Position numbers and translations under genes: made by a program. Below, piece by piece: positions 2,124-7,550 of a stretch of DNA of 64,000 nt (its first letter is position 1; every line of letters starts with the position of its first letter). The stretch is from a bacterium. Its GTDB lineage: Bacteria; Zhuqueibacterota; Zhuqueibacteria; Residuimicrobiales; Oceaniaggregativiventaceae. Below the pieces are notes generated by a model. That model had not been told where the DNA came from, did no database searches, and saw only the letters and a list, made by a program, of their open reading frames with translations. The stretch covers positions 1-64,000 of the forward strand of contig JAKQNP010000014.1 in the NCBI GenBank assembly GCA_029565675.1. The letters are read 5' to 3'.

Positions 2124-3227
2124 TCAAATCGACAAAGGCATCTGCATCAAATGCTGATTGTCGGGACTTGCTTCGATCAGCCGCAACAAACCCTGCATCG
2201 ATGTCTTGGCATCGCGATCGGCGATCCACCTGCGCAATGTGCGCAACCAACTGATCTCCGTTTCCGTGTAGAGCAATTCTTCCCGCCGTGTGCTGCTGGC
2301 GATCAAATTGATGGCCGGGAAAATCCGGACCTCAGCCAGAGAGCGATCCAATACGATTTCGCTGTTGCCTGTCCCCTTGAATTCTTCATAGATATAATCA
2401 TCCATTCTCGATCCGGTATTGACCATTGCCGTAGCGATGACGGTGACCGAACCCCCGTTTTCGATATTGCGGGCTAAACCAAAAAATCGCCGGGGAATCT
2501 CCAGAGCGCGGCTATCGAGACCGCCGGAAAGAGTCTTGCGCGATCCGACGCCATATTGGTTGAAAGCGCGTGCCAGGCGAGTCAGACTGTCGAGCAAGAT
2601 CACGATGTGCCGTCTGCATTCCACTTCACAGCGAACATGGACCAACGTCAATTCAGCCAGTTTGACATGCGACTCGACACTCTGGTCTGCGGAACTGGCC
2701 AACACCTCTGCCGGCACAGTCCGGCGGAAATGGGTGACCTCTTCCGGTCGTTCATCGATCAGCAGCACAACGATCCGAGCTTCCGGTTCACTGACGTGGA
2801 TCGCCACAGCGATTTCTTCGAGAAGACGGGTTTTACCTGCCTTGGGTGGCGACACGATCAACCCGCGTGTCCCTTTGCCGATGGGTGCGATCAGATCGAT
2901 AATCCGCATCGATACATTTTGATTTGCACCCAACTCAAAACGCTGGTGCGGATGAACAGCAACAAGCCGGTCGAATGTCGTTCGGTTGCGGAAGTCCTGG
3001 ACGGATAATCCGCAGACCGATTGCACAGACTGAAGTTCCAGCCTGTTGTTGACTCGCTGGGCAGCCCCGCTGACGGTTGCGCCTTCGACCAGGTGGTTTT
3101 CTTTGATCAGGTTGGGAGAAACCCATACGTCATTGGGCAGAGGCTGAAATGACCGCTCAGGATCGCGCAAAAAACTATCGCCTCTTAAACCGGCCTGCAG
3201 AACGCCGCTAATCGAGTCAGATAGCAT
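2124..3227 (-). CDS. Rho-type transcription termination factor, short form
   Basis: Clear Rho ATPase core: Walker A PPKAGKT (about residues 127-133 from the ATG at 3227), LLIDERPEEVT, Walker B VILLDSLTRLARAFN (about 209-223), IATAMVNTGSRMDD and EEFKGTGN. The RNA-binding cold-shock-like domain is recognisable before it (DVWVSPNLIK). The usual Rho N-terminal helical domain is absent: only about 35 residues precede the cold-shock region, giving 367 residues against about 420 in E. coli. Starts at 3239 (TTG) and 3236 (GTG) are alternatives; longer starts run deep into the helicase gene. The region after RPEEV (SSADQSVESHVKLAEL) differs from the canonical TFDEPASRHVQVAEM. It may be the sole Rho or a second, specialised copy; the window cannot tell. 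Confidence 0.85.
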   Translation of the reverse strand: MLSDSISGVLQAGLRGDSFLRDPERSFQPLPNDVWVSPNLIKENHLVEGATVSGAAQRVNNRLELQSVQSVCGLSVQDFRNRTTFDRLVAVHPHQRFELGANQNVSMRIIDLIAPIGKGTRGLIVSPPKAGKTRLLEEIAVAIHVSEPEARIVVLLIDERPEEVTHFRRTVPAEVLASSADQSVESHVKLAELTLVHVRCEVECRRHIVILLDSLTRLARAFNQYGVGSRKTLSGGLDSRALEIPRRFFGLARNIENGGSVTVIATAMVNTGSRMDDYIYEEFKGTGNSEIVLDRSLAEVRIFPAINLIASSTRREELLYTETEISWLRTLRRWIADRDAKTSMQGLLRLIEASPDNQHLMQMPLSI

Positions 3228-3246
3228 CTGTTCCACCAAACCCTTT

Positions 3247-4686
3247 CTAGTTGCGCCGGCGTTGCGTGGGGCGCTTGCGGCGGCTGGAACGATTACGACT
3301 GGTTCTGCTTTTGTCGGATGGGGATTTTTGCTCGATTTCCGGCAGTACGAAAGCTGGAGCATGGAGAGATTTTTGATAAAAATCGTCCAAGAGCATGGCA
3401 ATAATGGCCGATTCATCTTCGTTTTCGGCCAAAGCGCGGCCCAGCGGCACAAAGCGCAAACTGCGCTCAACAAGCCGTTTTTCGCGTTCGCGCAAACGCG
3501 CCTCAAGTAGAGCGATCACCCGTTCTGCAACAACGGTTTGCACGTCTTCGTCGGTCGGCACAGGTCTTTCATGCAAATCGATGCCAAAGCGCTTGCCAAT
3601 GCGGTCAAGAGTGAACTTTTCGACCGTGTTGACCAGAGAAATCGCAATCCCGGAAGCTCCAGCCCGGCCGGTACGTCCGGCGCGATGGATATAAGCTTCG
3701 GATTCGTCAGGTGGTTCATAAAGGATCACATGCGAAAGTTCCGGGATGTCGATACCGCGAGCCGCCACATCGGTGGCGACCAGGAAACGAAGAGCGCCTT
3801 TGCGCAACCGCATGAGAACGTGTTCGCGCGCGCTTTGCGGCAAATCAGAGGTCAATTCATCGGCATCATAACCGAACTGCTGCAAAACAACGGTGACATA
3901 ATGGACCTCGGCCTTGGTGTTGCAAAAGATGAGGGCGGAAGCCGGATTTTCGATCTCGATGATGCGAACCAGACTGCGGTCTTTATCCATACCGGCGACC
4001 GTGTAGACAATGTGTTCGGTATCGGCGACATGCACCTGACCTTCGCTCAACGATATGAATTGCGGATCATGTAAAAATTCGCCGGCGGTCGCCATCACAA
4101 AGCTCGGAAAAGTGGCAGAAAACAGACTCGAGGGTACTTTTCTGGCAGGCAGATAACTCTGGATTTTGATCATATCAGGATAAAAACCCATGGACAGCAT
4201 GCGGTCGGCTTCGTCAAAAATCAACATGGCCAATGAATCCAGAGTCAGGGTACCGCGCAAGAGATGATCCAGAACCCGGCCGGGGGTGCCGACGACGATA
4301 TGGCTGCCTCGCTTGAGCGCTTCGATTTGCGGGCCATATCCCACCCCGCCGTAGACTGCGGCAGTGCGCAATCCAGCAGGACCACAAAGCAGATCAGCTT
4401 CCTGGCTGACCTGGCGGGCGAGCTCACGAGTGGGAACCATGATCAAGGCTTGACACTGTTGTTTGGATACTTGCAGAATTTCCAGCAACGGCAAAAGATA
4501 GGCTCCGGTCTTGCCGCTGCCTGTACGCGCCTGGATCATCACATCGCGTTTGGCCAACAAGTAGGGTATCGTGCGCGATTGAACCGGCATCAAATCGGTC
4601 CATGCCGCCCGGGCAACTGCATCCTGCATGGCCGGCGACAGCTCCTGCAGGGTTACATCAGAAAGTGTTTCAAAAGAATTCGACAT
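3247..4686 (-). CDS. DEAD-box ATP-dependent RNA helicase
   Basis: 479 residues with all the usual motifs: Q-motif region (MPVQSRTIP), motif I ARTGSGKT (53-60), PTRELARQ, TPGR, DEAD (158-161), SAT (190-192), VATDVAARGID and HRAGRTGRAG. The C-terminus is a basic tail rich in Arg, Lys and Ser (RNRSSRRKRPTQRRRN), typical of RNA-tethering extensions in RhlE/CsdA/DeaD-type helicases. It unwinds RNA, for example during ribosome assembly or mRNA decay. The short Rho-type gene starts within about 20 bp of its stop, so the two RNA translocases are very likely expressed together. Confidence 0.93.
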   Translation of the reverse strand: MSNSFETLSDVTLQELSPAMQDAVARAAWTDLMPVQSRTIPYLLAKRDVMIQARTGSGKTGAYLLPLLEILQVSKQQCQALIMVPTRELARQVSQEADLLCGPAGLRTAAVYGGVGYGPQIEALKRGSHIVVGTPGRVLDHLLRGTLTLDSLAMLIFDEADRMLSMGFYPDMIKIQSYLPARKVPSSLFSATFPSFVMATAGEFLHDPQFISLSEGQVHVADTEHIVYTVAGMDKDRSLVRIIEIENPASALIFCNTKAEVHYVTVVLQQFGYDADELTSDLPQSAREHVLMRLRKGALRFLVATDVAARGIDIPELSHVILYEPPDESEAYIHRAGRTGRAGASGIAISLVNTVEKFTLDRIGKRFGIDLHERPVPTDEDVQTVVAERVIALLEARLREREKRLVERSLRFVPLGRALAENEDESAIIAMLLDDFYQKSLHAPAFVLPEIEQKSPSDKSRTSRNRSSRRKRPTQRRRN

Positions 4687-5239: not shown

Positions 5240-5572
5240 ATGAAAACAGTTGCACAAATCAAAGCAGGGGTCTGCGGCTTTAACACACTGGTGCAGGCCG
5301 ATTGCATTGATGGCCAGAACGTCGAGCTGCACATCGAAAGCGATTGCGAAAAGATTAAAACCCTCAGCCAAACGATCAAACAACACAACCCAGTTGACGC
5401 CTATGCGGAAGTGTTTGGCGCGCAAAACAATGTGCTGTCGCTGGCTCGCGACCAGTTGAGCGGATGTTGCGCCGGTTGTGTGGTGCCAGCCGGAATATTT
5501 AAGACGATTCAGACATCGTCCCGTTTGGCCTTGCCGCAAGAAATTCACATCAAAATCAGTGTCCAGGAATAA
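5240..5572 (+). CDS. Cysteine-rich small protein (DUF6951-like)
   Basis: 110 residues with eight or so cysteines, including an N-terminal AGVCGF motif and a central GCCAGCVVP cluster. It resembles small bacterial/archaeal proteins that I remember as DUF6951; that name is tentative. No signal peptide, so probably cytoplasmic. The AAGGGA at 5224-5229 can serve as ribosome-binding site. It is the first gene of a cluster with an arsenate reductase and thiol-disulfide proteins, so a thiol or metal(loid)-binding role is plausible but unproven. Confidence 0.65.
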   Translation: MKTVAQIKAGVCGFNTLVQADCIDGQNVELHIESDCEKIKTLSQTIKQHNPVDAYAEVFGAQNNVLSLARDQLSGCCAGCVVPAGIFKTIQTSSRLALPQEIHIKISVQE

Positions 5573-5593: not shown

Positions 5594-6271
5594 ATGCGAA
5601 TTCTTGTTCTCTGTACCGGAAATTCCTGTCGCAGCCAGATGGCTGAGGCGTTTTTGCGCTCTTTTGACAGCCAAATCTCTGTCGATTCCGCTGGAACCGA
5701 ACCTGCAGAACGCGTTCACCCTTTGGTCTTAACGGTCATGCGCGAAATTGGTTTTGATTTGAGCAAGCAACGGCCGAAAAACGCCAATGCCTTTATCGAT
5801 CAATCCTTTGACTATGTGATCACGGTCTGCGACCATGCCAATGAAACCTGTCCGGTGTTTCTCGGTTCGGTCAAACACCGTTTGCACTTTGGCTTTGACG
5901 ATCCAGCCAAAGCAATCGGCAGCGAGGAACAGGTGTTGGCTGAATTTCGCCGTATACGCGATGAAATCCGCAACAGATTCTATCACTTTTATCGTACAGA
6001 CATCTCAGGTAATATAAGGAAAAGGAGAAAATCGAAAATGCAAGTAAAAGTCCTCGGCACAGGATGTGCAAAATGCCGCGCGCTCGAGGAAAGGGTGCGC
6101 AAGGTAGCAGAACAGAATCAAATCGCCATCGAACTGGAAAAGGTGACGCAAATCGACGATTTGCTTTCCTATGGCATCATGATGACGCCAGGATTGGTAA
6201 TCGATGGACAAGTCAAAAGTGCAGGCAACCTGCCATTGGAGAAGGACATTCTCGCCTGGTTAAAAGGCTAA
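5594..6271 (+). CDS. Arsenate reductase (ArsC, LMW-PTP type) fused to thioredoxin-like domain
   Basis: 225 residues. Residues 1-138 are a thioredoxin-coupled ArsC: P-loop CTGNSCR (C7, R13), the resolving cysteines in CDHANETC (C79, C86) and the general acid in FDDP (D102/D103). Residues 149-225 are a small thioredoxin-fold protein like the redox-active disulfide protein 2 family, with GCAKC (C158, C161). The linker (140-148, basic) is encoded by sequence that looks like a former intergenic spacer: it holds AAGGAGA and is followed by an in-frame ATG at 6038. So the second domain may also be made alone. ArsC reduces arsenate to arsenite by a disulfide relay; a tethered thioredoxin could recycle it. 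No arsenite pump is nearby. Confidence 0.85.
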   Translation: MRILVLCTGNSCRSQMAEAFLRSFDSQISVDSAGTEPAERVHPLVLTVMREIGFDLSKQRPKNANAFIDQSFDYVITVCDHANETCPVFLGSVKHRLHFGFDDPAKAIGSEEQVLAEFRRIRDEIRNRFYHFYRTDISGNIRKRRKSKMQVKVLGTGCAKCRALEERVRKVAEQNQIAIELEKVTQIDDLLSYGIMMTPGLVIDGQVKSAGNLPLEKDILAWLKG

Positions 6272-6325: not shown

Positions 6326-6760
6326 ATGAAACGACTCTTTTTGTTGTCTATCCTTTACGTTTTTCTGCTCTCTTTTACATCAGCCTGTAGGTCAGACAAA
6401 ACGGAACCAGCAGACAAGGAAAAATCAACCACAACCCATTCAGCCGCTGATAAAAAAAATTCCACGGCCTTATTGGTCACCTTCATCGAGCTGGGATCGG
6501 TCAAATGCGTTCCATGCAGAATGATGCAACCGATTATGGATGAAATCGAAAAAGAATATGCCGATCAAGTAAAGGTGGTTTTTCATGATGTCTGGACCGC
6601 CGAGGGTCAGCCGTTTGCCAGACAATACAACATCCGAGTCATCCCCACACAGATTTTTCTCGACCGGGAAGGGAAAGAATACTTCCGCCACGAAGGGTTT
6701 TTCCCGAAAAATGAGTTGATCGAGATTCTCGAGCGTCAGGGGGTCAAGAAGTCCAAGTAG
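6326..6760 (+). CDS. Thioredoxin-fold lipoprotein
   Basis: 144 residues from the ATG at 6326, preceded by GAGG; a GTG at 6314 is less likely. Lipoprotein signal with lipobox FTSAC (C21), a Ser/Thr/Lys-rich spacer, then a thioredoxin fold with the redox motif KCVPC (C61, C64) and the cis-proline segment VIPTQIF. It should sit on the outer face of the inner membrane and take electrons from the CcdA-like protein encoded next. Target disulfides in the periplasm are unknown. Confidence 0.85.
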   Translation: MKRLFLLSILYVFLLSFTSACRSDKTEPADKEKSTTTHSAADKKNSTALLVTFIELGSVKCVPCRMMQPIMDEIEKEYADQVKVVFHDVWTAEGQPFARQYNIRVIPTQIFLDREGKEYFRHEGFFPKNELIEILERQGVKKSK

Positions 6761-6848: not shown

Positions 6849-7550
6849 ATGAACAATCTTTTTGTATGGTTAACTGAAAGCTTAAGCGGTTCTGTGGCAG
6901 TCGCCTTTCTGGCGTCGTTGATTTGGGGAATCCTGAGCATTGCGCTCAGCCCTTGCCATCTATCATCCATTCCTCTGATCGTCGGTTTTATCAATGGACA
7001 GGGTGTGCGGGAAAAAAAACGCGCATTTTATTTGTCCGCTCTTTTTGCGGTCGGTATTCTGTTCACCATCGCTCTTATCGGCTTGATCACCGGACTTTTG
7101 GGACGAATTTTGGGAGACATCGGCAAAACTGCTAATTATGTTGTGGCAGTGATATTTTTTGTAATGGGCCTGCACTTGCTGGAATGGATCAAGCTGCCCT
7201 TTCTTGCTTTCGCCAACCGTCCCAAAATGAACAAACATGGCTTGTGGGCTGCTTTTTTAATCGGTTTGCTGTTTGGTCTTGCTCTTGGGCCTTGCACCTT
7301 TGCCTTTATGGCGCCAATCCTGGGAATCACTTTCAGCATTGCTTCGACAAAACCGGTATTTGCTGTGCTGCTGGTTCTTTTCTATGCCATTGGCCATTGC
7401 TCGATTATCGTGCTCGCCGGCACATTTACCGGTGCGCTGCAAAAAGCCCTCAACTGGAACGAACGCACCAAAGGTGCACTCATCTTGAAGAAAACCTGCG
7501 GTCTACTGGTCATACTTGGAGGCCTCTATCTGATTTGGAGTGCCTTTTAA
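6849..7550 (+). CDS. CcdA/DsbD-like transmembrane electron carrier
   Basis: 233 residues, six or so membrane helices. The paired cysteines of the CcdA family are visible in LSPCHLSSIP (C36) and LGPCTFAFMAP (C149). Such proteins pass electrons from cytoplasmic thioredoxin across the inner membrane to periplasmic thioredoxin-fold proteins. Here the likely partners are both in the same cluster: the ArsC-linked thioredoxin domain inside and the thioredoxin lipoprotein outside. The start ATG follows a purine-rich GGAG site (6839-6842). Confidence 0.88.
   Translation: MNNLFVWLTESLSGSVAVAFLASLIWGILSIALSPCHLSSIPLIVGFINGQGVREKKRAFYLSALFAVGILFTIALIGLITGLLGRILGDIGKTANYVVAVIFFVMGLHLLEWIKLPFLAFANRPKMNKHGLWAAFLIGLLFGLALGPCTFAFMAPILGITFSIASTKPVFAVLLVLFYAIGHCSIIVLAGTFTGALQKALNWNERTKGALILKKTCGLLVILGGLYLIWSAF

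Follow-up and report, generated by a model that had tools for sequence, protein, structure and literature searches.

An in-frame ArsC::ArsE reading frame as a candidate self-contained arsenate reductase

Introduction

The catalytic cycle of thioredoxin-coupled arsenate reductases (ArsC) ends with a disulfide between the second and third redox cysteines, which a thioredoxin must reduce. In the window (the whole stretch of 64,000 nucleotides analyzed here, from a bacterium of the phylum Zhuqueibacterota), one ORF encodes an ArsC-like domain followed by a thioredoxin domain of the ArsE type, and the question arises whether this frame specifies an enzyme that carries its own reductant, a tolerated by-product of a lost stop codon, or a sequence error. 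We lean slightly towards the view that neighboring arsC and arsE genes were fused in frame recently, giving what would be a self-contained arsenate reductase with ArsE acting in cis to restore reduced ArsC.

Results

The fused frame and its domains

The initial annotation described ORF 5594-6271 as an arsenate reductase and a thioredoxin domain within one frame, and the open frame of 225 aa indeed contains both (Table 1): residues 3-129 match LMWPc (Pfam PF01451, E 1.3e-22; 81 bits vs. a cut-off of 23.2) and residues 149-224 match Thioredoxin_3 (Pfam, E 1.7e-25). The best NCBIfam model for the first half is TIGR02691 (pI258-type arsenate reductase), at 117.5 bits under an equivalog cut-off of 174.3, so this half is called ArsC-like by its cysteines and fold, and not a TIGR02691 equivalog. 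The second half clears the cut-off of TIGR00412 (MTH895/ArsE family, NCBIfam; 95 vs. 62 bits).

The ArsC half has the CxxxxxR catalytic loop (CTGNSCR, residues 7-13), and its catalytic cysteines Cys7, Cys79 and Cys86 are kept in 138, 139 and 138, respectively, of 139 ArsC sequences (window included); it is predicted to be an arsenate reductase of the thioredoxin-coupled LMWP type. The CxxC motif of the ArsE half (Cys158 and Cys161) occurs in all 36 ArsE sequences compared (window included), and one ArsE retrieved later than this set, that of locus L197, is devoid of the first cysteine. A built-in reductant, as had been proposed from the tethering of the two domains, would need catalytic cysteines, and these are all present in both halves.

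An AlphaFold2 model of the fusion, computed with 56 relatives, has a mean pLDDT of 92.2 and both domains well predicted, with a placement of the domains that is uncertain at a pTM of only 0.67. In the model, the C-terminal helix of ArsC continues into the linker, which is basic and looks untuned (one helix at residues 111-145; pLDDT about 70 at 141-150). Using Foldseek, the ArsC half was matched, among other structures, to ArsC of Bacillus subtilis and D. indicus and to the ArsC partner in 2ipa (a Trx-ArsC complex); the ArsE half was matched to MTH895 (1ilo). No solved chain covering both domains was found among the sequence matches to the fusion.

Table 1. Position of the features of the arsC::arsE locus within the window
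Feature	Position	Strand	Basis or remarks
DUF6951 protein, first gene of the cluster	5240..5572	+	Pfam PF22263, E 1.3e-24; recurs as a neighbor of ars genes
Fused ArsC::ArsE ORF	5594..6271	+	225 aa, from ATG 5594 to the stop ending at 6271, uninterrupted frame
ArsC domain, aa 1-135	5594..5998	+	thioredoxin-coupled, pI258-like fold; LMWPc, TIGR02691, cysteines, fold match
Linker, aa 136-148	5999..6037	+	translated former spacer; genes apart in G003, L007, L014
TAA in the +2 frame, at the natural ArsC end	6010..6012	+	sequence
TAA in the +1 frame, at the natural ArsC end	6015..6017	+	sequence
Shine-Dalgarno-like AAGGAGA within the fused frame	6022..6028	+	sequence; duplex energy -8.7 kcal/mol
ArsE/MTH895-type thioredoxin domain, aa 149-225	6038..6268	+	own ATG at 6038; Thioredoxin_3, TIGR00412
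ArsF-like thioredoxin, signal/lipobox-like start, CVPC motif	6326..6760	+	PF00085, E 3.5e-11
ArsG-like DsbD/CcdA-type membrane protein	6849..7550	+	PF02683, E 3.2e-15, 56.5 bits vs. 27.1

Gene neighborhood

The genes are arranged in the order DUF6951 - arsC::arsE - arsF-like - arsG-like, and the two downstream genes identify the second domain of the fusion as the ArsE of an arsEFG-type cluster. This context had been missed initially, and the partner of the reductase may include the adjoining membrane protein. The CxxC motif of the ArsF-like protein is present in 27 of 27 sequences compared, and Cys36 and Cys149 of the ArsG-like protein, one in each half of its DsbD_TM domain, are both present in 24 of 24 (window included in each case); the latter protein thus has the domain and cysteines of a predicted DsbD/CcdA transmembrane dithiol relay. 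Given the near-invariant cysteines of the ArsC, ArsE, ArsF-like and ArsG-like proteins, the set looks like a dithiol chain, to which a putative direction and function are assigned below.

NCBIfam names its families ArsE and ArsG and labels ArsG an efflux permease for aromatic arsenicals, which suggests another role, in which ArsE would bind As(III) or aromatic arsenicals and pass them to the ArsG permease, the fusion handing the product of the reductase to the exporter. A published paper, in its introduction, attributes resistance to organic arsenicals to ArsE and ArsF and describes ArsG as an efflux transporter, which counts for this role. We nevertheless consider it very improbable here. The best NCBIfam match of the window's ArsG-like protein is indeed ArsG (NF040495), but at 56.6 bits it lies far below the cut-off of 200, which is also missed by a paralogue from the same genome (50.9) and by the corresponding protein of genome G003 (54). 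The DsbD/CcdA-type cysteines, found in every ArsG-like sequence compared, suit a dithiol relay, and a second ArsC::ArsE fusion, that of Sulfurospirillum cavolei (see below), exists without an arsG orthologue.

ArsE/ArsF/ArsG genes lie within 1.5 kb of DUF6951 at 4 of 11 DUF6951 loci (window included). When DUF6951 was used as an anchor for an orthologous locus, 8 of 60 genomes were matched (including that of the window), and the window's was the only retrieved flank with ArsC::ArsE. The DUF6951 proteins of the window (5240-5572) and of loci L196, L197 and L200 bear a cluster of cysteines, which reads CCAGC in the window and in L200 and GCAAC in L197; DUF6951 is a candidate metal or metalloid protein associated with ars genes.

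The junction and the internal start codon

It had been proposed that the linker codons contain AAGGAGA followed by an in-frame ATG, the natural start of the thioredoxin-like domain. The ATG (6038-6040) does stand downstream of this motif, and the ribosome-binding sequence proved unusually strong. Anti-Shine-Dalgarno duplex energies were computed for all in-frame ATGs inside 48 long ORFs of the window (299 sites); the value at 6038 (-8.7 kcal/mol) was equalled by 3 of the 299 (very probably counting 6038 itself) and reached by 13 of the 48 gene starts. The medians were -6.7 kcal/mol for gene starts and -2.1 kcal/mol for internal ATGs, in a comparison that took the best-scoring candidate as the start of each ORF, a choice favoring gene starts. 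The site at 6038 looks like a gene start retained inside a longer frame and, as the ribosome-binding site and ATG of arsE survive in the fused frame, free ArsE is probably produced alongside the fusion. Scans for promoters and terminators yielded results near chance level. Programmed frameshifting was set aside, since the fused frame is already the default frame.

Both non-fused frames carry a TAA where the ArsC proteins of relatives end. The old stop codon that had been placed in the +1 frame at about 6014 exists at 6015-6017, and the TAA of the +2 frame (6010-6012) had been overlooked. With a TAA in both other frames, one base too many or too few in the assembly shortly before this point, near 6010, would be enough to mask a stop, and the true genes would then be separate, as they are in G003. 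Such an assembly or sequencing error, which we hold to be unlikely though deserving serious attention, would also agree with the draft state of the genome (64 contigs), with the separate arsC and arsE genes of relatives, and with another apparent arsC read-through in a draft relative, G013. Several points speak against it: (i) of ten conserved window genes compared with NCBIfam models, nine have full length (the tenth, Rho, is described below), which argues against frequent indels in the window, (ii) a random indel has only about a one-in-three chance of leaving the two genes in frame, and (iii) the S. cavolei fusion sits in a complete chromosome.

Relatives with separate genes and the history of the two halves

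In G003, a genome of the same family, arsC, arsE, arsF and arsG are separate genes in unchanged order, with arsE in the frame of arsC and two TAA codons between them; arsC and arsE are likewise separate in L007 and L014. As these relatives hold the arsC and thioredoxin genes apart, the linker of the fusion is a former intergenic spacer that is now translated, as the initial annotation had supposed. Homologues mostly have separate genes: when nine loci with arsC near arsE were read through (L007, L008, L009, L011, L012, L014, L041, L057 and L062), eight had separate genes, and one, L062, is a second single-frame case. The distance between arsC and arsE is larger in G001 (same genus) and in a second cluster of the window's own genome (contig C4, L117). 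This second cluster was rejected as the direct ancestor of the fusion, since its arsC and arsE are apart and its arsC is 62% identical.

The two halves of the fusion appear to differ in their history. The ArsE half groups with the ArsE proteins of the family, the nearest being that of G003 (support 98/80). The ArsC half is unplaced in a tree in which many forks are unresolved, and forcing it together with four other ArsC proteins of the family was marginally rejected (AU test, p 0.047, a soft value, as the tested clade was named after inspection of the tree). With the ArsC half apart from the family's other ArsCs, the G003 arsC-arsE-arsF-arsG locus was rejected as a strict orthologous ancestor. 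These groupings suggest that a different arsC may have come beside a family arsE before the stop codon was lost. No close orthologue of the window's locus was found among the relatives, and the single base change that had been proposed as the origin of the fusion is a candidate event.

A second fusion in Sulfurospirillum cavolei

Locus L062 belongs to the complete chromosome of S. cavolei UCH003 and contains a single in-frame ArsC::ArsE ORF of 213 aa (Pfam E-values of 5.8e-17 for the ArsC and 3.4e-26 for the ArsE domain). Its junction, AAGGAGAAAGCGATG, contains a ribosome-binding-like sequence and an ATG (-8.5 kcal/mol). A sibling genome (G101) has the order arsC - arsG-like - arsF-like - arsE, with the same upstream genes as S. 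cavolei and a related permease gene downstream, and the S. cavolei locus is devoid of the two middle genes (arsG-like and arsF-like). A search of the S. cavolei genome with the arsG-like protein revealed no arsG orthologue, the only match being a distant DsbD-like protein (26%). Judged by this gene order, the S. cavolei fusion probably arose through the loss of the middle genes, in an event distinct from that in the window, and the joining of ArsC and ArsE thus seems to have arisen independently twice. The persistence of ArsC::ArsE without an arsG orthologue is expected if ArsE serves ArsC directly.

Distribution of the fusion

In the window's phylum, 82 genomes were surveyed (E<=1e-40); 22 had some match, and one had a spanning match without a stop. 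Such a match also occurred in 1 of 24 genomes of the S. cavolei genus and, at E<=1e-45, in 1 of 397 of the S. cavolei phylum, of which 139 had some match; the latter is again UCH003. In a further genome of this phylum (G123), arsC and arsE lie in one frame with a single TAA between them. Spanning unstopped matches were absent from two further phyla, each surveyed with 395 genomes: that of Seramator (E<=1e-50), where 111 genomes gave a match, and that of a Geobacteraceae genome (E<=1e-38), where 17 did; E-value cut-offs such as these could overlook diverged fusions. A stop occurs within reach in 118 of 119 distinct ArsC relatives, and only the window ORF and that of G013 (a different fusion) exceed 200 aa, in a set from which the S. 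cavolei fusion is missing because its ArsC match ended early. Among 854 plasmid records matching the S. cavolei protein, two had a place covering at least 80% of the query, one with the genes annotated separately and the other spanning arsC and an efflux gene. ArsC::ArsE is rare and sporadic and not a fixed architecture, with two cases and no fixed fusion clade found in the surveys.

Discussion

Proposed function of ArsC::ArsE

In the self-contained reductase that we slightly favor, arsenate would be reduced by ArsC through Cys7, Cys79 and Cys86, ending in a Cys79-Cys86 disulfide, and the CxxC of the tethered ArsE (Cys158/Cys161) would reduce this disulfide, a task otherwise left to a freely diffusing thioredoxin. 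ArsE itself might be recharged either by a cytoplasmic thioredoxin reductase or by the neighboring ArsG/ArsF dithiol proteins, and free ArsE made from 6038 would leave a pool for ArsF/ArsG.

The same internal start has a more modest explanation. The fusion could be real and yet a tolerated by-product of neutral stop loss, the useful product being free ArsE that serves ArsF/ArsG and not ArsC. The strong Shine-Dalgarno sequence and ATG retained at 6038 would fit such a situation, as would the arsF and arsG genes directly downstream and the lack of a fixed fusion clade in the genome surveys. We judge it improbable, since the S. cavolei fusion has the identical domain order although its genome lacks an arsG orthologue, and both domains of the window's fusion retain every catalytic residue.

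A more elaborate version of cis reduction, for which we see only a slender chance, would have ArsC::ArsE dock on ArsG, so that cytoplasmic arsenate reduction exchanges electrons with the extracytoplasmic ArsF via ArsG. If so, the locus would encode a membrane-coupled arsenate reductase, with enzyme, reductant and transmembrane dithiol relay as one unit, and detoxification would not draw solely on the cytoplasmic thioredoxin pool.

Comparison with known systems

The ArsC half shares with ArsC of pI258 and B. subtilis (1jl3, 1ljl, 2ipa) the LMWP fold, the CxxxxxR loop, the second and third redox cysteines and a thioredoxin-type partner; it differs in that the partner is covalently joined and of the ArsE/MTH895 type instead of TrxA, and in scoring below the equivalog cut-off. 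The ArsE half resembles the MTH895/ArsE family (TIGR00412; 1ilo) in passing the family cut-off, in its CxxC and in its fold, but here the domain is the C-terminal part of ArsC.

A paper from 2010 proposed that small redox proteins encoded beside arsC in ars operons supply this enzyme as parts of an arsenate reductase system. The three redox genes are those found beside arsC in the window; they are described there as separate genes, whereas here arsC and the gene of the redox-active disulfide protein encode one polypeptide. As regards ArsC and ArsE, the proposal gains support from the fusion: an ArsC and a redox protein in one chain, apparently arisen twice, are direct genetic evidence for their partnership, which becomes testable with a single purified protein. 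The fusion also questions the reading of ArsE solely as part of an aromatic-arsenical system.

Fusions of ArsC in print include Acr3-ArsC (Mycobacterium tuberculosis), ArsR-ArsC, AqpS-ArsC and ArsN-ArsC, as reviewed in PMC6205960. Like the window's protein, these join ArsC to a functional partner from arsenic resistance, but the partner described in that source is a regulator, channel, exporter or ArsN, whereas in the window it is a redox partner. No report of an ArsC-ArsE or ArsC-thioredoxin fusion was found in the open-licence literature under the terms searched.

Other ArsC fusions and minor observations

Several loci of the S. cavolei phylum (L161-L166, L168, L169 and L171; e.g., L164:504-1157) encode ArsC with another C-terminal domain of about 85 aa, which has a conserved cysteine motif such as NCKTGACECM and, in L164, no Pfam match besides LMWPc; this looks like a recurrent ArsC fusion. 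In L173 (498-1385) and L172, a single ORF encodes ArsC, a BFD-like [2Fe-2S] domain (a Pfam match in L173, similar by eye in L172) and, after it, the cysteine-rich C-terminal domain just described. In the G013 read-through (L175:1536-2738; 400 aa), ArsC reads in frame into an F420_oxidored/P5CR-like NAD-binding protein; NAD-binding genes similar by eye adjoin DUF6951 in L197, L200 and contig C44 of the window's genome.

Elsewhere in the window, the Rho gene (2124-3506) leaves the first 50 positions of its NCBIfam model unmatched, and the start of its ORF overlaps a DEAD-box helicase gene; the N-terminus of this Rho is unusual or truncated.
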